This document shows, piece by piece, positions 25,046 through 38,168 of a stretch of 64,000 nt of DNA. The notes below the pieces were generated by a model that ran no database searches, was not told where the DNA came from, and worked only from the letters and a program-made list of their open reading frames with translations. The stretch lies in NCBI GenBank assembly GCA_030428885.1, contig JAUIEJ010000006.1, forward strand, positions 310,001 through 374,000. Direction: 5' to 3'. This DNA is from Gemmatimonadota bacterium. GTDB taxonomy: Bacteria > Gemmatimonadota > Gemmatimonadetes > Longimicrobiales > Gaopeijiaceae. Positions within the stretch are counted from its first letter, which is position 1. Each line of letters starts with the position of its first letter. The position numbers and the translations under genes are program-made.

Positions 25046-25739
25046 CCCCGGCCACCGCCCAGGCCATCCAATCGCCGTCGTGGGAGATGGACACACCGCA
25101 GTCCTCCAGGACCCGGGTGTCCAGGTGGAGGTAGGGGGGACTCCGTCCCGCGGGGCCGTCGGGGCAGATCACCTCCAGCCGGGCCTCCTCGACGCCCAGG
25201 AACGCCGCCGCCTCCCGGCGCACGGCCAGGCGCACCAGGGCCGAAGGGAGCCCCCGGATCACCGGACGCTCCGCCTCGGAGAAGTGTCCGTGGCGTAGGC
25301 TCTCCAGGTCGGCGCCGCCGAATCCCCGATGCAGGGCCGCCTGGGCGCCGGCCCCCCACACCGGCAGGGCCCCGGGGCGGGAGGGACGGGCCACCGCCAC
25401 CAGGCGGTCCCGGGTGCCGTGGGTCGTGAGGTCCAGGGCGATGTCCCCGTACTGGACGCGCCCGGCATCGAGATCCACCCGGAACGCCGCATGGGCGAAG
25501 ACCGGGGGGGCTCCCCGCAGCAGGGTGGCGGCCTTGAAGGCGGCCTCCTTCGCCGCCCAATGGGCCCAGAAGGCGCTTCCGGGGTCCGGGGCCTCCACGA
25601 CGCGCCGACGTTCCTCCTCGGCCAGCACCCGCTCCACGGTGCGGGAGCGGGGAAGCCCCCGGAGCACCCGGGGCGTCCGCAGGTCCACCACGTCGATCCC
25701 CACCACCGCCGCCGGGCGCAGCGGCCCCGGGTGGGTCAT
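25020..25739 (-). CDS. 4'-phosphopantetheinyl transferase superfamily protein
   Basis: A 239-residue protein. The magnesium motif GIDVVDL lies near residue 13 and WAHWAAKEAAFKA near residue 65, both hallmarks of holo-ACP synthases. A C-terminal SISHDGDWMAWA block resembles the family's conserved SxSH element. It would attach 4'-phosphopantetheine from CoA to a carrier protein. Its length is about twice AcpS but near Sfp-type enzymes, and the motif order is AcpS-like. Its ATG shares one base with the thioesterase stop (TGATG). No carrier protein or synthase gene lies nearby. Confidence 0.82.
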   Translation of the reverse strand: MTHPGPLRPAAVVGIDVVDLRTPRVLRGLPRSRTVERVLAEEERRRVVEAPDPGSAFWAHWAAKEAAFKAATLLRGAPPVFAHAAFRVDLDAGRVQYGDIALDLTTHGTRDRLVAVARPSRPGALPVWGAGAQAALHRGFGGADLESLRHGHFSEAERPVIRGLPSALVRLAVRREAAAFLGVEEARLEVICPDGPAGRSPPYLHLDTRVLEDCGVSISHDGDWMAWAVAGVSGGGDGS

Positions 25740-26140
25740 CAGGGCGCCCCCAGGGCGGCGCGGACGTCGTCGGGAATGCGGGTCGGCTTCCCGTGGGCGC
25801 CCACCCACACCACCACCACTCGAGCCCGGGCGAAGACGGTCTCGGGCCCGCCGGGCGCGTGGGCCACCTGCTCCAGGGTCATGGACGAGTTCCGGATCTC
25901 GGCCGGTGCGGTGCGGATGCGCACGGCCTGCCCCAGGCGCGCCTCCCGGACGTAGTCCACCTCGACTCGGGCCACGTGGATCCCCACGCCGTCGGCCAGG
26001 AGGACGGCCGGGGGAAAGCCCGCGGCCTCCAGCGCCTGGAAGCGCGCGTACTCGAAGTGGTTCAGGAAGACGGCGTGGTTGAGGTGCCCGAACCCGTCGA
26101 GTTCGTAGCTGCGCACTTCGACATCGGTATGGTGGATCAC
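25739..26140 (-). CDS. Acyl-CoA thioesterase, hotdog fold (YbgC/FadM-like)
   Basis: A 133-residue single hotdog-domain protein. The catalytic segment SYELDGFGHLNHAVFLNHFEYAR corresponds to the family's DxxGHVNNxxYxxxxE, with the expected Asp and the Tyr replaced by Phe. The body then follows with VDYVREARLGQAVRIRT. It should hydrolyse acyl-CoA or acyl-ACP thioesters. GTG 26140 overlaps the LuxR gene stop (GTGA) and its own stop overlaps the PPTase start, so all three are translationally coupled. Confidence 0.88.
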   Translation of the reverse strand: MIHHTDVEVRSYELDGFGHLNHAVFLNHFEYARFQALEAAGFPPAVLLADGVGIHVARVEVDYVREARLGQAVRIRTAPAEIRNSSMTLEQVAHAPGGPETVFARARVVVVWVGAHGKPTRIPDDVRAALGAP

Positions 26141-29165: not shown

Positions 29166-30173
29166 TCAGTCTCCCAGGACCTCCAGCGCCCCCGGGAGGA
29201 CCTCCACCTCCAGTACGCCGCCGTCCACCGTGAACACGTCGCCGTCGGCCTCGAAGCGCACGGGCCCGCCGAACTCCACCCGGAAGTGGGCGCCGTCGAC
29301 GATGGAGACCTCGGGAGCGTCCACGTGGCGGCCTTTCCCCGCATCCCCGAACAGCTTCATGCGGCGGAGGGGCGAGGCGTCGCCGATCATGCAGGCGTGG
29401 AGCCGCCCGTCTTCCACCGTGGCCCGGGGGGCGATGGGAAACCCACCGCCGAAGTAGGGGGAGTTGCTGATGGTCACCATGAGGTGGCGTCCCCCTCCGA
29501 CCCGTCCCGTGGGGGAGTGGATCTCGGCCTCGATTCCGGGAAACCGGAAGAGCTGCTGCAGCGCCGTGAGCTTGTAGAGGGCCTCGCCCTTCAGAAAGCG
29601 GGCTCCGGCGGCGGCGTCCAGCACGGCGATGTCGAATCCGAATCCCACCAGATTCAGGAAGTGGCGCACCCGGGCCGGGGCCGTGGGCGGCGCCAGGCTC
29701 CCGGGTTCGCCCGGCGCGCTGGGGGTGAGGATCCGCCCCGCGTCGAGGCGCCGGGTGCGCCCCGCGGCCAGGGCCTTCACGGCGGCCTCGGGGTCGGAGA
29801 AGCGAAGCCCCAGGCTGCGGCCGAAGTCGTTGCCGGTACCGGCGGGAAGAAGCCCGAGCCGGACATCGGTCCGACCCGAGGTCAGGAGCCGGTCGGCCAC
29901 GTGGCTCCAGGTGCCGTCGCCGCCCACGGCCACCAGGGTCTGGAAGCCGGCCGACAGGGCCTCGTCGGCCAGGCGGTTCTCGTCGCCGGGCGCCGCCGTC
30001 ACGCCGTGCTGGAACCCCGGGAGATGCCGCCCCAGGAGGTCGAGGTACTCGGTCTGCCGCCGCCGTCCCCGCCCCCGCCCCGAGGCGGGGTTGAAGATGA
30101 CGAAGACCGAGCGACCGTCGCCGCTCAGATCGACTCCATCTCCTCGAAGGTCTGGACGCCGGCCCGATACCAC
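29166..30173 (-). CDS. Diacylglycerol/sphingoid-type lipid kinase (DAGK catalytic domain)
   Basis: About 320-335 residues with the DAGK/LCB5 motifs VIFNPASGRGRG, VAVGGDGTWSHVA and LPAGTGNDFGRSLGL in order, then the C-terminal beta domain. It transfers phosphate from ATP to a lipid hydroxyl; family substrates include diacylglycerol, sphingoid bases and ceramides. The start is unclear. GTG 30173 has its ribosome site too close, while CTG 30128 has GGAG five bases upstream and forms a CTGA overlap with the upstream gene's stop. Being downstream of an alpha-oxoamine synthase makes a sphingolipid-like substrate worth considering. Confidence 0.9.
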   Translation of the reverse strand: MVSGRRPDLRGDGVDLSGDGRSVFVIFNPASGRGRGRRRQTEYLDLLGRHLPGFQHGVTAAPGDENRLADEALSAGFQTLVAVGGDGTWSHVADRLLTSGRTDVRLGLLPAGTGNDFGRSLGLRFSDPEAAVKALAAGRTRRLDAGRILTPSAPGEPGSLAPPTAPARVRHFLNLVGFGFDIAVLDAAAGARFLKGEALYKLTALQQLFRFPGIEAEIHSPTGRVGGGRHLMVTISNSPYFGGGFPIAPRATVEDGRLHACMIGDASPLRRMKLFGDAGKGRHVDAPEVSIVDGAHFRVEFGGPVRFEADGDVFTVDGGVLEVEVLPGALEVLGD

Positions 30174-30787
30174 TCCTCCCGGATCGGGTACGACGAGACC
30201 TCTTCGAGGGTGAGCCCTTCGGTCATGGGGTGGGGGTGAAGCACCAGCTCGCCGTTCTCCTCGTCGTGCTCGGAGTGGGGCGCATCCATGAAGATGTTGA
30301 CCTTGAAGCGCTCGTCGCCCTCCACCGTGAAGCAGTGGTAGGGGTTCACCGTGGCATTGAAGTCGTGCTGGGTGACGGTGAGTTCGACCACGGGCTGTCC
30401 CGCGTCGCTCACCGTGACCTTCATGGCGTCGTCCGACTCCTGGAAGTCGAATTCCACGTCCTTCATGTAGTGGGGCAGGTGCCAGCGCTCGATGGCGTGG
30501 GCCCGGGAGGCCGCCGTGCTGGTGGCCACCATGAAGGGGTAGAACGCCGCCTTGGGGAGGGGCTTGCCCGGCTCGACCCGAGGCGGGGTGATGATGGCCA
30601 TCACCAGCTCGTCGTAGGCGCCCACCTCACTCTCGGTGAACTGGAACGCCAGAACGGCGAGCACGCTCCGGGTGTGCATGGCCTCGAGGGGTTCGAGGTG
30701 CGACGGGAGAAGGCCGCGGGCATCGGAGGTGGCCATCTCGAAGAACGCGCCGACGCAGTTCTCGAAGCCGTACCGGGTCAGGACCAT
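30125..30787 (-). CDS. Acetoacetate decarboxylase-like protein
   Basis: A 220-residue protein without TM segments. The pattern LLPSHLEPL, AVLAFQFTESEVGAYDELVMAI, FYPFMVATSTAASRAHAIERWHLP resembles the acetoacetate decarboxylase (ADC) fold family: pore-lining LEP, the GxYxEL segment, and the WxLP block. The ADC Schiff-base lysine is not evident, so decarboxylase activity cannot be assumed. It lies 82 bases after the alpha-oxoamine synthase gene and overlaps the lipid kinase, so the three are likely co-expressed. Assignment is by eye and moderate. Confidence 0.6.
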   Translation of the reverse strand: MVLTRYGFENCVGAFFEMATSDARGLLPSHLEPLEAMHTRSVLAVLAFQFTESEVGAYDELVMAIITPPRVEPGKPLPKAAFYPFMVATSTAASRAHAIERWHLPHYMKDVEFDFQESDDAMKVTVSDAGQPVVELTVTQHDFNATVNPYHCFTVEGDERFKVNIFMDAPHSEHDEENGELVLHPHPMTEGLTLEEVSSYPIREEWYRAGVQTFEEMESI

Positions 30788-30869
30788 CGAAGAGTTCCCT
30801 GGTCTGGGGTCGTGCGGACGGGCGTGACGAGGCCGAGCCCGAGGGGTGGGCCCGCCACGGAGTCCCCGA

Positions 30870-32231
30870 TCAGATGATGTGGTGGCGCTTCAGGACGTCC
30901 ACGATGATGCGGGCGCCTTCTTCGAGCTCGTCGCGGGAGTGGGCCGCCGAGATGGACATGCGGAACCGGGACTTGTGCTTGCCCACCGCCGGGTACTTCA
31001 CCGGGTTGATGAACACGCCTTCCCGGAGCAGCTCCTCGCCGATCTCGAACACCTTGGCGTCGTTGCGGACCATGATGGGAATCACCTGGGACTCGGAGTC
31101 GCCGATGTCGACGCCTCCGTCTCTCAGGAGTCCCTGCATGATCTCCACGTTCTCCCACAGCCGGGTGCGCAGTTCGGGCTCGGCTGAGGCGAGCTGGAGG
31201 GCCCGGGTGATCCCGGCCACCACCGTCGGCGCCAGGGCGCACGAGAAGAAGCGCGAACGGGAGAAGCCCCGGAGGTAGTCGATGAGGGCCCGGCTGCCGG
31301 CCACGAATCCGCCCTGCCCGCCCAGGCTCTTGGAGAACGTCCCGATGTGGATGTCCACCTCGGCATCCAGCCCGAAGTGTTCGGCCACGCCCCGACCGTT
31401 GGCGCCGAAGACGAAGGTGGAGTGGGCCTCGTCGATGAGCACCCGGGCGTTGTGGGACCGGGCCACCTCCATGATCTCGGGCAGCGGAGCGATGTCGCCG
31501 TCCATGGAGTAGACACCCTCGACGATCACCAGCTTCTTGCCCTCGAAGCCCCGGAGCTTGCGGTCCAGATCCTCGGGCTTGTTGTGCCGGAAGAACCGGC
31601 TCTTCGCCTTCGACAGGATCATGCCGTCGACGATGGAGGCGTGGGCGTACTGGTCGGCCACGATGAGGTCGCCCGAGCGCATGAGGCCGGCGATGACCCC
31701 CACGTTGGCGCTGTAGCCCGTGGGGAAGATCATGGCCGCTTCCTTCGCCTTGAAGGCGGCGAGCTCGTCGGCGAGCTGCTTGTGGAGCTGGGTGGTGCCC
31801 GAGAGGATCGGAGAGCCGGACGATCCGCCGCCGAATCGATCGACGGCCTCCTTGATCGCCTGCTTCACCTCGGGGCGGTACGACAGCCCGAGGTAGTTGT
31901 ACGAGGCGAAGTTGATGAGCCCCTTCCGCACCTCGTGGGTCTTGGTGTCTTCCACGTCGACCCGGGTGGACGGCGCCGAATGCAGCGGCAGCTCGTACTG
32001 GTAGTAGCCCTGGGGCTGAACCTGTCCCCACCACTCGGCGAAGGGCTCCAGAAGAGCGAAGGCGTCGTCGCCCGACCCGAAGTAGAAGTTCGTGTAGTCG
32101 TAGTCGAGGGCATCGACGTCGGCCGAGACCGCGTCCTGGCCCGACCCCTGGATTCGATTGGACCCGGTGGACACGCGCTTCTCCTCCGTAGAGGTTCCGG
32201 CCGTCGCTTGAAGTTCGTCGTGATCAGCCAT
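30870..32231 (-). CDS. Alpha-oxoamine synthase, serine palmitoyltransferase-like
   Basis: A 453-residue PLP enzyme of the AONS/KBL/SPT family. Visible are GSSGSPILSGTTQLH, the cofactor-ring histidine region ADQYAHASIVDG, the Asp of LIDEAHSTFVFG, and the PLP lysine in HIGTFSKSLGGQGG (about residue 300). An N-terminal extension of about 90 residues (YTNFYFGSGDDAF..., WGQVQPQGYYQYELP) recalls SPT more than BioF or KBL. It probably condenses an acyl thioester with an amino acid; SPT activity, the first step of sphingolipid synthesis, is an inference supported by the neighbouring lipid kinase. No biotin genes are nearby. It diverges from the PlsC gene with only 23 bases between starts. Confidence 0.85.
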   Translation of the reverse strand: MADHDELQATAGTSTEEKRVSTGSNRIQGSGQDAVSADVDALDYDYTNFYFGSGDDAFALLEPFAEWWGQVQPQGYYQYELPLHSAPSTRVDVEDTKTHEVRKGLINFASYNYLGLSYRPEVKQAIKEAVDRFGGGSSGSPILSGTTQLHKQLADELAAFKAKEAAMIFPTGYSANVGVIAGLMRSGDLIVADQYAHASIVDGMILSKAKSRFFRHNKPEDLDRKLRGFEGKKLVIVEGVYSMDGDIAPLPEIMEVARSHNARVLIDEAHSTFVFGANGRGVAEHFGLDAEVDIHIGTFSKSLGGQGGFVAGSRALIDYLRGFSRSRFFSCALAPTVVAGITRALQLASAEPELRTRLWENVEIMQGLLRDGGVDIGDSESQVIPIMVRNDAKVFEIGEELLREGVFINPVKYPAVGKHKSRFRMSISAAHSRDELEEGARIIVDVLKRHHII

Positions 32232-32254
32232 TAGGCTTCGCTCGCAGCAGGGGC

Positions 32255-33061
32255 GTGACCGAATCCTGGAGATCCGGTTTGAAAATCCGCGGGATCCTGA
32301 CCATAGCCGTCGCGGGGACCGCACTGGTCCTGGGAGACGTCGTCCAGCGGACGCTCCTCGTGGCCGCGGTGCGCCTCTTTCCGTCGCGCCGCCACCGGAT
32401 CCTGGCTTCCTGGCAGCAGGCTCTCGCCCGCCTCATGCTCTGGGCCGCCCGGGTCATCGGGGGGGCCCGCCACGGCGAGATTCCCCGAATTCCCGGAGGA
32501 CCCGGGACGCTGGTTCTCATGAACCACCAGTCCGTCATGGACATCCCGCTGGTCGTCCGTACCCTGCACGATACATACCCCAGAATCGTGACGAGGGCGC
32601 GATATGCCCGTGGCAAGCCACTAATCTCGCATATGGTCCGGCTGTATCAATACCCCACGGTAGATCCCGGGGCAACCGTCCGGACCAGCCTCGACGAGCT
32701 TCGGGAACAAACGGCGTCGAGCCCCGTCCCGGTGGTGATCTTTCCCGAGGGCACGCGCACGCGGGATGGGAGCCTCTCCAAGTTCCGTCGTATGGGACTC
32801 CGGGCCATCCTGGGCGGCCGCTCCTGGCAGGTGTGGCTCGTGACGGTGGACGGCTGGTGGCAGGCCGCCCGTCTCACCGACTTCATCGACAACGTCTCCG
32901 AGGTGGAGGGGCGCATGCAGGTGGACGGGCCCTTCACGTCGCCCGAGCCTGGGGAGTCGGTGGGGGCGTTCATCGCCGAGATGGAGCAGCGCATGGGCCG
33001 GCTCTTCGGCGAGCTGTCCGGAGGTCGTCCGCCGACCCTGCCGGTGGGCGAGCCCGAATGA
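32255..33061 (+). CDS. 1-acyl-glycerol-3-phosphate acyltransferase (PlsC family)
   Basis: A 268-residue acyltransferase with the catalytic NHxxxxD motif (NHQSVMDIP, about residue 89), a TM-like N-terminal helix, and the glycerophosphate-binding FPEGTRTRDGS near residue 163. It would acylate a lysophosphatidic acid or related lipid at the inner membrane. The start is GTG 32255 or TTG 32279. It is the first gene of a tightly overlapped trio with a Tam41-like nucleotidyltransferase and a CDP-alcohol phosphatidyltransferase (ATGA and GTGA junctions), which together read as phosphatidate, CDP-lipid, phospholipid. Confidence 0.92.
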   Translation: MTESWRSGLKIRGILTIAVAGTALVLGDVVQRTLLVAAVRLFPSRRHRILASWQQALARLMLWAARVIGGARHGEIPRIPGGPGTLVLMNHQSVMDIPLVVRTLHDTYPRIVTRARYARGKPLISHMVRLYQYPTVDPGATVRTSLDELREQTASSPVPVVIFPEGTRTRDGSLSKFRRMGLRAILGGRSWQVWLVTVDGWWQAARLTDFIDNVSEVEGRMQVDGPFTSPEPGESVGAFIAEMEQRMGRLFGELSGGRPPTLPVGEPE

Positions 33062-34041
33062 CGTCGGGATCCGCCGGCGCCCTCATCCCGGAGGAGCGTC
33101 GCGGGGGCCCCGTGGAGGCGCGGCCCATCGTCGACGCGTTGGTGGCGTCGGGCGGGGGCGCGATCCGGGGCATTCTCCTGTTCGGATCGCAGTTGAACCG
33201 GGCGTCCCCGTCCCCCCACAGTGCCTGGGATCTGGTGGTGATCGTGGATCGCTACGGCCCGTTCCACCAGGCGCTGGTGGCGGCGGGGCACCATCGGCGG
33301 CCGGCGTGGCTGCTCTCGGCCATGGGGCACGTCCTCCCCCCCAACATCACCGCCTTCGATCCCGGGGGCGGGGCGCCCCTGGCCAAGTGCGCCATCGTGT
33401 CGGCCCGGGCCTTCCGCAGGGCGTTGGCCCCGGGATCTCCCGACCACTTCCTCAAGGGCCGCATGGTGCAGAAGGTGGCCCTGCTCTGGTCTCGCTCCGA
33501 CGACGACGCGGCGTGGATCGAGGAGCGCCTGGCCGAAGCCCGGGCCGACGTGCTGAACTGGGCCGGCCCCTACATCGACGGGTCGTTCACCGCCGAAGGC
33601 TTCGCCCACCACATGCTCCGGGTCTCGTACGGGGGGGAGGTGAGGCCCGAAAACGCCGGTCGGGTCGACGACGTCTTCGAGTCCCAACGGCCCTTTCTCG
33701 CCGACGCGTACGCCCGCGTCCTGGCCGAGGCGGCCGAGGGCGGAAGGGTGCGGAGTCTCGGCGACGGGCGCTGGGCGCTGGATCCCGCACCCGGGTGGGG
33801 AGCCCGCCTCCGGGCCGGCTTGTACTTCGCCTGGTCGAAGGTGCGGGCCACGGCGCGGTGGCCGAAGCACATCCTCACCTTCAACGACTGGCTCACCTAC
33901 ATCCAGCGAAAGGTCGAGCGCCGCACCGGTCTCACGGTAGAGATCACGCCGTGGGAACGGCGGCTGCCCCTCCTCCTGCTCTGGCCCAAGGTGTTTCGGG
34001 TCCTGGCGGCCCGCTCCTCCACCGAGGCTTCCGACCCGTGA
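33058..34041 (+). CDS. Predicted nucleotidyltransferase, Tam41/Mmp37-like (possible CDP-diacylglycerol synthase)
   Basis: A soluble 327-residue protein. A nucleotidyltransferase signature GILLFGSQLNR...WDLVVIVD (about 37-62) is followed by FHQALVAAG, NITAFDP, AKCAIVSARAFRRAL and GRMVQKVALLW. This order parallels mitochondrial Tam41: GS motif, DFIxxVD, the KYGVIS block and the AGRLHKPV block. Tam41 makes CDP-diacylglycerol and is unrelated to the usual integral-membrane CdsA. The gene overlaps an upstream PlsC and a downstream CDP-alcohol phosphatidyltransferase, exactly where a CDP-lipid synthase would act. The call is by pattern only. Confidence 0.6.
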   Translation: MTSGSAGALIPEERRGGPVEARPIVDALVASGGGAIRGILLFGSQLNRASPSPHSAWDLVVIVDRYGPFHQALVAAGHHRRPAWLLSAMGHVLPPNITAFDPGGGAPLAKCAIVSARAFRRALAPGSPDHFLKGRMVQKVALLWSRSDDDAAWIEERLAEARADVLNWAGPYIDGSFTAEGFAHHMLRVSYGGEVRPENAGRVDDVFESQRPFLADAYARVLAEAAEGGRVRSLGDGRWALDPAPGWGARLRAGLYFAWSKVRATARWPKHILTFNDWLTYIQRKVERRTGLTVEITPWERRLPLLLLWPKVFRVLAARSSTEASDP

Positions 34042-34793
34042 GAACCGACCTGATGGTCCTGCTGGGCATCCTGGGCTTCGCCGTCCTCACCATGCCGGTC
34101 TACGCCGGGTCCGCCGCCCGGCGCCGTCCCGATCCCCTGGAGTCGTCGGCCCGGGGCGACTTCGTCCTGGGGTCGTTCGTGCGGGAGTGGTTCTACTGGT
34201 TCATCCGGCCCGTGGAGCGAGCCTCCCTCACCCTGGGCCTGTCGCCCCTCTTCTACAACGTGGCCGGGGCGGTCCTGGGCATCCTGGCGGGGGTGGCCTT
34301 CGCCCGGGGCAACATGGTGGCGGGGGGATGGCTGATCCTGGGAGGCGGCGCCGCCGACGTCCTGGACGGGCGCATCGCCCGCGCTCGGGGCATCGCCTCG
34401 CGCCGAGGGGCGTTCCTCGACTCCACCCTCGATCGTTTCGCCGAGTTCGGGGCCTTCGTGGGACTGGCCCTCTGGTTTCGCACCGACCCCACCGCCCTCA
34501 CCCTCACCGTGGTGGCCCTGGGCGGGTCTCTCCTGGTGAGCTACGCCCGTGCCCGGGGCGAGAGCGTGGGCATCGTCTGCAAGGTGGGGGTGCTGCAGCG
34601 GGCCGAACGCCTGCTCCTCCTGGGCTTCGGCGGCCTGTTCGACCCGGCCGTCTCCGAGCTCCTCGCCGGCCCGGGTCCGGGTCGGCTCATGCGGTTCGTG
34701 GTGGCCATCGTGGCCGTGGGCACGGTCTTCACGGCCATCTACCGCATCGTGTGGATCGCCCGGCGGCTTCCGGCGGTGGATCCCGACGAATGA
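34038..34793 (+). CDS. CDP-alcohol phosphatidyltransferase family membrane protein
   Basis: A 251-residue integral membrane enzyme with the complete family signature DG-x2-AR-x8-G-x3-D-x3-D, seen as DGRIARARGIASRRG then AFLDSTLD near residues 110-133. At least six TM segments flank it. These enzymes displace CMP from a CDP-lipid with an alcohol such as glycerol-3-phosphate, inositol or serine; the acceptor is not predictable here. The GTG start overlaps the preceding stop (GTGA). It is the last gene of the lipid trio. Confidence 0.93.
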   Translation: MRTDLMVLLGILGFAVLTMPVYAGSAARRRPDPLESSARGDFVLGSFVREWFYWFIRPVERASLTLGLSPLFYNVAGAVLGILAGVAFARGNMVAGGWLILGGGAADVLDGRIARARGIASRRGAFLDSTLDRFAEFGAFVGLALWFRTDPTALTLTVVALGGSLLVSYARARGESVGIVCKVGVLQRAERLLLLGFGGLFDPAVSELLAGPGPGRLMRFVVAIVAVGTVFTAIYRIVWIARRLPAVDPDE

Positions 34794-36275: not shown

Positions 36276-36289
36276 GGTGTTCCGTCGAG

Positions 36290-36363
36290 CGCCTCCTCCA
36301 GGACTCGAACCTGGGACACCCTGATTAACAGTCAGGTGCTCTAACCGACTGAGCTAAGGAGGC
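36290..36363 (-). tRNA. tRNA-Asn (anticodon GTT)
   Basis: Read on the minus strand, a cloverleaf is clear. The 7-bp acceptor stem is GCCTCCT/AGGAGGC and the D-arm is GCTC...GAGC. The anticodon stem is CCTGA/TCAGG with loop CTGTTAA, giving anticodon GTT. The T-arm is CCAGG/CCTGG with loop TTCGAGT. The discriminator is G and CCA is not encoded. Its first 8-10 bases contain the stop codon of the upstream minus-strand gene, so it is probably processed from that gene's transcript. Confidence 0.95.
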
Positions 36364-37064: not shown

Positions 37065-37691
37065 TCAGGCCGAGTCCCGCCGCACCGGAAGCATCTCCGT
37101 CTGGTCCCGGTCCACCGACGGCACCTGGTGGCAGGATCGGCACCGGGCCTCGTAGCTCTCCGACCCTCCCACCTGGATCGTGGGCCCCTCCGCCGGTGCG
37201 GGCCGGCCGTCGATGAGCCGCTGGTTCCGGGTGGCCAGCTCGCCGCACTTCACGCAGATGGCCTGGAGCTTGTCGATGCGCTCCGCCACGGCCAGGAGCT
37301 CGGGAATCGGGCCGAAGGGCTCCCCGCGGAAATCCATGTCGGTCCCGGCGATGATCACCCGCACGCCCGCGTCGGCGAGGTGATTTGCCACGGGCACGAT
37401 GCCGCCGTCCAGGAACTGCGCCTCGTCCACCGCCACGACCTGGGTCTCCCGGTGGACCATCTCGGCGACCTGAAGGGAGCGGTGGATCGGAACGGCCTCG
37501 ATCTCACGACCGTCGTGTGTGCCGATTCGATACACCCCACCGTATCGATCATCGAGATGGGACTTGAACACCTGGACGTGTTTCCGGGCGATGACCGCCC
37601 GGCGGACCCGGCGAATCAGTTCCTCGGACTTGCCGCTGAACATGACGCCGGAGACCACCTCGATCCACCCGCGTTGCCGACTCGTATACAC
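37065..37691 (-). CDS. tdk: Thymidine kinase (type II)
   Basis: A 208-residue kinase with P-loop GVMFSGKSEEL, VVAVDEAQFLDGG (Walker B, catalytic Glu), the lid GTDMDFRGEPFGPIPELLA, and two CxxC pairs binding structural zinc (CVKCG and CRSC). It phosphorylates thymidine in salvage. GTG 37691 (followed by YTSRQRGWIEVVSG) has GGAG 5 bases upstream and matches the family N-terminus; an ATG 11 codons earlier is less likely. The long gap upstream should carry its promoter. Confidence 0.95.
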   Translation of the reverse strand: MYTSRQRGWIEVVSGVMFSGKSEELIRRVRRAVIARKHVQVFKSHLDDRYGGVYRIGTHDGREIEAVPIHRSLQVAEMVHRETQVVAVDEAQFLDGGIVPVANHLADAGVRVIIAGTDMDFRGEPFGPIPELLAVAERIDKLQAICVKCGELATRNQRLIDGRPAPAEGPTIQVGGSESYEARCRSCHQVPSVDRDQTEMLPVRRDSA

Positions 37692-38168
37692 CCTCGCTCC
37701 GGCGTTCGAACAGGAATCGGGCACCCACTTCCGTGGCGTTGGACCGCGACGAATCGCGTCTCGCGACGAATTGCCCCCGCTCCCCTCGCGGTGGTTCGGT
37801 GAGGGCTGGGGCGGGCCCGCCGCAGGGGTGGCCGTGAGTGCCGCAGTCTAGACCCCCCCGAGGGGAGTGTCCACCCGGAGTCCCCGGGATCGGCCCGGAT
37901 CCTGCAAGGGACCCACCCTTTCGAAGCGTCCGAGCGGGTACGGTGCGGTCCGCGAAGATGCGCGGCTTCGCAGGTCAAACCGCGGATTAAGGTTATCTTG
38001 ACCTCGCTTGACAGCGGGGGTTCGCGGGGGCAAATGTGGACGAGCGAGATAAACAAATGGTGCCTCGAACGAGTTCGGGCGCGTCGGTTCGGCCCCTCGT
38101 TCTGAACGATCCCCTGCGCGGTACGCCGACCCACTTACTCCTCTGCCCCCCCGGAGACGGATTCCTCG
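37692..38168. other. 477-base divergent intergenic region
   Basis: It lies between thymidine kinase (minus) and the 250-residue unknown gene (plus). A TTGACA at 38008-38013, with a second TTGACC 10 bases before it, could be a -35 for the plus-strand gene; the sequence 17 bases on (CAAATG) is a poor -10. No RNA gene or protein-like frame was seen. Confidence 0.35.

Follow-up and report, generated by a model that had tools for sequence, protein, structure and literature searches.

A conserved six-gene locus of Gemmatimonadota with a predicted SPT-like synthase, an ADC-fold partner and a Tam41-like enzyme

What kind of lipid would a bacterium make with an alpha-oxoamine synthase, a protein of the acetoacetate decarboxylase (ADC) fold and a lipid kinase encoded back to back with an acyltransferase, a Tam41-like enzyme and a CDP-alcohol phosphotransferase? 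The question is raised by a locus at positions 29166-34793 of a 64,000-nucleotide stretch of DNA from a Gemmatimonadota bacterium (G000:C15:310001-374000, hereafter the window), whose genome, G000, comprises 5.39 Mb in 23 contigs; throughout, G numbers denote genomes and L numbers the loci sampled. The locus is real, conserved and unusual. Several questions follow from it. Is the synthase a serine palmitoyltransferase (SPT)? What could an ADC-fold protein do beside it? Do the two arms of the locus serve one pathway? Is the canonical ceramide route present in the same cell? The genes are as follows.

29166-30173, minus strand: third left-arm gene, YegS/DAGK-type lipid kinase with a GGDGT motif and both the DAGK catalytic and the YegS C-terminal domain (Pfam DAGK_cat 1.1e-26, YegS_C 1.8e-25)
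30125-30787, minus strand: second left-arm gene, ADC-fold protein with LPHYM instead of an LPK-type motif (below the Pfam ADC cut-off)
30870-32231, minus strand: first left-arm gene, alpha-oxoamine synthase with an ATG start and the pyridoxal phosphate lysine in TFSK (Pfam Aminotran_1_2 1.5e-55)
32232-32254, no strand: divergent spacer of 23 bp between the start codons of the synthase and PlsC, as read in the sequence
32255-33061, plus strand: PlsC-type acyltransferase with NHQSVMD (HX4D) and FPEGTR (Pfam Acyltransferase 7e-14)
33058-34041, plus strand: second right-arm gene, Tam41-fold cytidylyltransferase by its predicted fold, with a GSQ...SAWD motif
34038-34793, plus strand: CDP-alcohol phosphotransferase of the phosphatidylinositol phosphate (PIP) synthase / archaetidylinositol-phosphate-synthase type (Pfam CDP-OH_P_transf 7e-11)

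All six open reading frames are intact, and the arrangement reported in the preliminary description of the window, namely six contiguous genes in two tightly packed divergent arms whose starts lie 23 bases apart, is borne out. The ADC and kinase genes overlap by 49 bp and the synthase and ADC genes are separated by 82 bp, while both junctions of the right arm (PlsC/Tam41-like and Tam41-like/transferase) are 4-bp overlaps; the transferase gene starts with GTG at 34038, with an alternative ATG at 34053.

The synthase and its ADC-fold partner

The best solved relative of the synthase is the SPT of Sphingobacterium (3a2b, 294 bits), and its TFSKSLGG and DQYAHAS segments, containing the Schiff-base lysine and the active-site His, respectively, line up with SPT structures. 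The NCBIfam scores for bioF (368.3 bits, cut-off 426) and SPT (368.1 bits) are both below cut-off, and GSPILSG stands where the references have GSR-x-L-NG, so that the Arg of most reference synthases is replaced by Pro. In a tree of oxoamine synthases, the rows of which included solved KBL, cysteate acyltransferase and the annotated E. coli spt, the synthase makes up a separate clade with full support, outside the SPT clade (support 99/98), which takes in the SPTs of Bacteroidota, Sphingomonas, E. coli and other Gemmatimonadota. The nearest row to the synthase clade is a synthase from Shinella linked to a polyketide synthase (PKS), on a long branch (89/90). The preliminary description, which called the protein SPT-like, had named a grouping with BioF or KBL as one result that would speak against its reading of the locus. 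The approximately unbiased (AU) test rejects the grouping with KBL (p 0.029); the grouping with BioF, which is absent from the best tree, is not rejected (p 0.129 and 0.073), nor is a single clade of the synthase and SPT (p 0.105). Since in the best tree the synthase has its own clade outside that of SPT, since KBL is rejected as its group and neither SPT nor BioF is, and since the Arg of the GSR motif has become Pro, the protein is, as judged from its sequence, an SPT-like alpha-oxoamine synthase of a separate lineage. The first assignment to SPT therefore needs correction: the synthase may be a sister of SPT or may belong with other oxoamine synthases.

The protein encoded next to the synthase scores 28.5 bits against a cut-off of 29.8 in Pfam ADC. 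Searches of solved structures with sequence-only profiles gave chance matches only, both for this protein and for the Tam41-like one, and therefore predicted folds were needed for both. The AlphaFold (AF2) model of the ADC-like protein has a pLDDT of 95.8, and its best Foldseek match in the PDB is an acetoacetate decarboxylase (3bgt, E 1.7e-11); MppR and SbADC are matched as well, the E values of these matches being about 1e-10 to 1e-11. In acetoacetate decarboxylase, the Schiff base is formed by the lysine of an LPK/PKK motif. This lysine is missing in all 34 of the 34 aligned ADC-like homologues, which have His or another non-Lys residue at this position. The position was set by alignment with an annotated plasmid ADC-family protein (LPKW, against LPHY or another sequence here) and by the known ADC motif; it rests on these two because a solved-structure search with the plasmid protein gave no match. 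Because the Schiff-base lysine is absent, ordinary decarboxylation by the ADC mechanism appears unlikely. Thus the likeness to the acetoacetate decarboxylase superfamily that was noticed at first extends to the fold (TM 0.67), but the catalytic residue and a Pfam score above the cut-off are lacking and the familiar reaction is not to be expected.

The pairing of the two genes is fixed. The ADC gene lies directly downstream of the synthase gene in 70 of the 70 cases found (67/67 in the family of the window genome and 3/3 in another family). In the family survey, which covered 121 genomes, 67 have the synthase, always with a same-strand ADC gene directly downstream at a gap of 2-148 bp, and five more, all fragmented drafts, have an ADC gene but no synthase (G181, G198, G220, G224 and G240). 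Of the 160 phylum genomes sampled, 26 have the synthase, and exactly these 26 also have the ADC family. The ADC tree consists of two old paralogue clades, and since the synthase pairs with either of them, the pairing looks functional, more than inherited gene order. From this fixed pairing we infer that the ADC-fold protein acts on the aminoketone product of the synthase. The preliminary description had regarded an ADC-fold protein as foreign to the known SPT clusters, and in agreement with this the open literature searched contained no paper joining oxoamine synthase and acetoacetate decarboxylase; nor did it contain one joining Gemmatimonas, sphingolipid and polar lipids. In one scan of genome contigs, which detects close relatives only, the ADC family was found only in Gemmatimonadota, and a plasmid search for ADC relatives gave one weak match. 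The window genome contains two further ADC paralogues, at G000:C22:196141-196782 and G000:C8:216910-217395 (L054 and L055), which have no obvious lipid-gene neighbours and one of which appears to be N-terminally shortened.

The right arm and the conservation of the layout

The Tam41-like protein is far below the cut-off of Pfam Tam41_Mmp37 (10.5 bits, cut-off 24, E 0.36). Its AF2 model (pLDDT 84.2), however, has the Tam41 nucleotidyltransferase fold with a helical C-terminal part, and its best Foldseek match is 7ecd, a CTP-Mg-bound Tam41 from Firmicutes (E 7.5e-8, TMt 0.68); Tam41 of S. pombe is matched as well (6ig4, E 3.3e-7). The model therefore upholds the first assignment and supports a Tam41-fold cytidylyltransferase. 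The predicted fold and a GS...D motif are shared with the Firmicutes and mitochondrial enzymes; the protein differs from them in having no significant sequence match, in being encoded beside PlsC and an oxoamine synthase, and in belonging to a genome that also has CdsA. The CDP-alcohol transferase carries the signature DVLDGRIARARGIASRRGAFLDSTLDR, and among solved structures its profile matches PIP synthases most closely (6h53, E 3.8e-20; 5d92, E 5.7e-19). Because an ordinary CdsA and two other CDP-alcohol transferases are encoded elsewhere in the window genome, the Tam41-like and transferase enzymes of the locus look extra or specialised. Tam41 as the sole CDP-diacylglycerol (CDP-DAG) synthase of the genome was rejected, as CdsA is present. 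A linkage of the locus to the inositol-phosphate synthase gene (PF01658) at G000:C5:145354 was also rejected: the gene is unlinked, and it is present in 147 of the 160 phylum genomes and hence unspecific.

The five genes other than the synthase gene, that is, ADC-kinase on one side and PlsC-Tam41-transferase on the other, are found in relatives, at 38-86% identity, in one and the same divergent arrangement, and thus the six-gene association is beyond chance. All six genes stand together in the window and in L009, L010, L011, L061, L066, L067, L068 and L071, of which L061 belongs to a sister genome of the same genus, G069. A synthase gene placed between the arms is shared by the genus of the window genome, genera g2 and g5 and the distant family f5 (G048; G033). 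A second family of the class has the six-gene layout, in L071 and also in G033 (L070 + L127), where the synthase gene is split by a contig break. Tam41 and the synthase occur together in 22 of the 160 phylum genomes, the synthase alone in 4 and Tam41 alone in 2 (Fisher p 6e-21, phylogeny ignored); within the family, the counts of both, synthase only, Tam41 only and neither are 20, 3, 1 and 16 (Fisher p 2e-7, phylogeny ignored). The tie between the two arms is looser than that between the synthase and ADC.

Pathways that the locus may serve

How might the six proteins work together? Our tentative reading, which we put a little short of an even chance, is that all six genes serve the synthesis of one long-chain amino phospholipid, along a route of kinase, CDP-lipid and head-group steps; the joint pathway, including its substrates, step order and head group and the role of the ADC-fold protein, is what we infer from here on. 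The synthase would condense a fatty acyl thioester with an amino acid, serine being the simplest choice, and the product would be an alpha-amino ketone like 3-ketosphinganine. The ADC-fold protein would receive this aminoketone directly and most likely bind, shield or rearrange it, and the amine of the aminoketone itself could replace the lost ADC lysine. The YegS-type kinase would then phosphorylate the lipid, PlsC would add an acyl chain in place of the missing ceramide synthase, and the Tam41-type enzyme would turn the lipid phosphate into a CDP-lipid, from which the CDP-alcohol transferase would release CMP in exchange for a phosphorylated alcohol. The likeliest such alcohol is inositol 1-phosphate, for which the genome has the synthase gene mentioned above, and the product would probably be of the phosphoinositol type. 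The logic of this route, which had been outlined in the preliminary description as a combination of kinase, CDP-lipid and CDP-alcohol transferase, is coherent, and the locus to which it applies is real and conserved. In its favour are the six-gene linkage in two families, the fixed partnership of synthase and ADC genes, the co-occurrence of the arms, the predicted folds, the resemblance of the transferase to PIP synthases, the additional CdsA and CDP-alcohol transferases of the genome, and the fact that classical SPT and the present synthase never share a sampled genome.

Two known systems resemble parts of such a route. Phosphosphingolipid synthesis in Caulobacter crescentus involves the ceramide kinase CC_1160, the CDP-DAG-synthase-like CC_1161 and the CDP-alcohol transferase domain protein CC_1159 (PMC11324152). 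Common to both is the linkage of an oxoamine synthase with a lipid kinase and with enzymes of the CDP-lipid synthase and CDP-alcohol transferase types; unlike Caulobacter, the Gemmatimonadota locus has a Tam41-fold activator, an ADC-fold partner and PlsC, and neither a bacterial ceramide synthase (bCerS) nor a clear ceramide reductase (CerR) was found in the window genome. The inositol-lipid cluster BT_1522-BT_1526 of Bacteroides (PMC9246714) is similar in that a CDP-alcohol transferase of the PIP-synthase type occurs in a sphingolipid-capable bacterium with an inositol-phosphate synthase in its genome. In contrast to that cluster, the six-gene locus lacks linked genes for an inositol-phosphate synthase, a PIP phosphatase and an inositol-phosphoceramide-synthase-like protein, and it includes the synthase gene itself as well as that of a Tam41-type cytidylyltransferase.

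Several observations weigh against a single pathway. No ketone reductase gene and no N-acyltransferase gene lies within the locus, serine is a presumed substrate of the synthase, and the NCBIfam scores of the transferase are below cut-off (archin_ph_syn 1.1e-37, 129.7 bits against 180; PIPSynth 8e-32, 110.5 bits against 170). In many relatives the synthase-ADC pair is found elsewhere, often with a second ADC copy (synthase away from the locus with a second ADC copy in L056-L058, L065 and L073). The synthase-ADC-kinase arm occurs alone in G139 and G027; G075 retains kinase-Tam41-transferase after the loss of the synthase, ADC and PlsC; and G127 has Tam41 and the transferase alone, beside ether-lipid-like genes. 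In this last genome (L126:8340-15818, G127:C3), the Tam41-like and CDP-alcohol transferase genes adjoin those of an FAD-linked oxidase, a fatty-acyl-reductase/PlsC fusion and an SDR, with no synthase.

These rearrangements favour the main rival, in which two pathways meet at one locus: the synthase-ADC pair would lead to a non-phosphorylated or separately processed amino lipid, and the kinase, PlsC, Tam41 and transferase would make an ordinary glycerophospholipid, for example, phosphatidylinositol phosphate, from diacylglycerol. A bacterial Tam41, that of Firmicutes, has been shown to make CDP-DAG (PMC11646218), and the major polar lipids of a cultured relative, Gaopeijia maritima DH-78T, are phosphatidylethanolamine, phosphatidylglycerol, diphosphatidylglycerol and an unidentified aminolipid (PMC11651109), both of which would suit two pathways. 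On the other hand, the arms co-occur strongly within the family by the Fisher test given above, which ignores phylogeny, full six-gene linkage is found in two families, and another ADC-kinase copy remains with the right arm even where the synthase has left. The scattering of the genes among related genomes, which the preliminary description had taken as evidence against a common function, is therefore seen in part: the layout is conserved, including in a second family, but the synthase and ADC genes change place together and the arms can stand alone. We regard two separate pathways as a serious but rather unlikely explanation.

Could the locus instead be part of a standard bacterial sphingolipid system, making a ceramide phospholipid with a normal SPT, and with bCerS and CerR encoded elsewhere in the genome? 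That SPTs are its closest solved relatives, and that the AU test admits one clade of the synthase with SPT, would be in keeping with this, but in the best tree the synthase lies outside the supported SPT clade, the one that holds the SPTs of other Gemmatimonadota. Classical SPT is found in 60-61 of the 160 phylum genomes (at least 450 bits; one truncated at a contig end) and the synthase of the present locus in 26, and no genome has both (hypergeometric p 9e-7, phylogeny ignored). The classical loci (L158-L169), which are widespread in other families of Gemmatimonadota, have the order SPT, GNAT (bCerS-like), SDR (CerR-like) and PAP2_3, the last being the Pfam family of inositol-phosphoceramide synthases. 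The order SPT, GNAT, SDR fits the bCerS-CerR pathway (PMC11087976). The six-gene locus has in common with classical SPT-bCerS-CerR clusters in general that its first enzyme is an alpha-oxoamine synthase of their superfamily, but its synthase belongs to a separate clade, and a GNAT acyltransferase, an SDR reductase and a PAP2_3 phosphotransferase are lacking from it.

The preliminary description had proposed to look for ceramide synthase and ceramide reductase homologues elsewhere in the genome. A bCerS profile that finds its target in 90 of the 160 genomes gave no match in the window genome or in its single-contig sister G069, and the CerR profile found no clear orthologue in the window genome, its best matches there and in G069 reaching 91-93 bits, the level of the SDR background, whereas genomes that carry the classical cluster gave 490 and 306 bits. 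Since neither a bCerS orthologue nor a clear CerR orthologue is present, the canonical ceramide route is not supported in the window genome. Some carriers of the synthase are closer to what a standard system would require, as 10 of the 26 have a bCerS-like protein of at least 400 bits and 4 more have one at lower scores, but no CerR gene stands alongside these genes (L175-L183). A standard sphingolipid locus is accordingly improbable. The bCerS-like gene is adjoined by a glycosyltransferase-like gene in L181, L183 and L179. An independent linkage of SPT with a kinase is seen on a Parabacteroides plasmid (L141:1735-4092), where the SPT gene is divergent from a gene of the diacylglycerol-kinase family.

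It is very unlikely that the locus makes a secondary metabolite, with a PigH-like oxoamine synthase that uses an acyl group bound to a carrier, the ADC-fold protein tailoring or cyclising the product and the lipid genes as mere neighbours: the PKS-linked Shinella synthase is the nearest tree row, prodiginine PigH homologues are among the closest plasmid matches and ADC-fold relatives are known from natural-product pathways (MppR, 4jmc), but no PKS, non-ribosomal peptide synthetase or carrier protein gene is present at the locus, and its conserved neighbours are lipid genes.

Returning to the single phospholipid pathway, a wider proposal can be built on it, about which we are more doubtful: part of the Gemmatimonadota would have a second route, assembled separately, by which a sphingolipid-like phospholipid is made and in which a distinct synthase, a lysine-less ADC-fold protein acting on the aminoketone and a Tam41-type enzyme activating a (non-glycerol) lipid with CDP replace SPT-bCerS-CerR, the product being a new class of phospho-amino-lipid. 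If true, the known bacterial sphingolipid route would have an alternative at the level of its enzymes, and a catalytically altered ADC-fold family would gain a role. A Tam41-type enzyme would make CDP-activated long-chain-base lipids, a step that has so far only been proposed, in Caulobacter and for a different protein. Surveys of sphingolipids that score SPT, bCerS and CerR together may then miss or misread such genomes.

Genes around the locus

Further genes lie on either side of the locus.

25739-26137, minus strand: 4HBT thioesterase near the left arm (Pfam 4HBT_2 1.4e-18)
36289-36363: tRNA-Asn
37065-37724: thymidine kinase

L012, L013 and L056 have a similar thioesterase gene in the vicinity of the locus, and the enzyme is possibly associated with the locus; the argument does not need it. 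An undecaprenyl-diphosphate-synthase gene is found a few genes downstream of the kinase gene in L012, L013 and L022; the genes in between encode a short protein of the winged-helix type and/or a protein of 220 residues that has no annotation. In L015, L022 and L125, too, thymidine kinase is encoded near the locus, indicating that the surrounding synteny is conserved.

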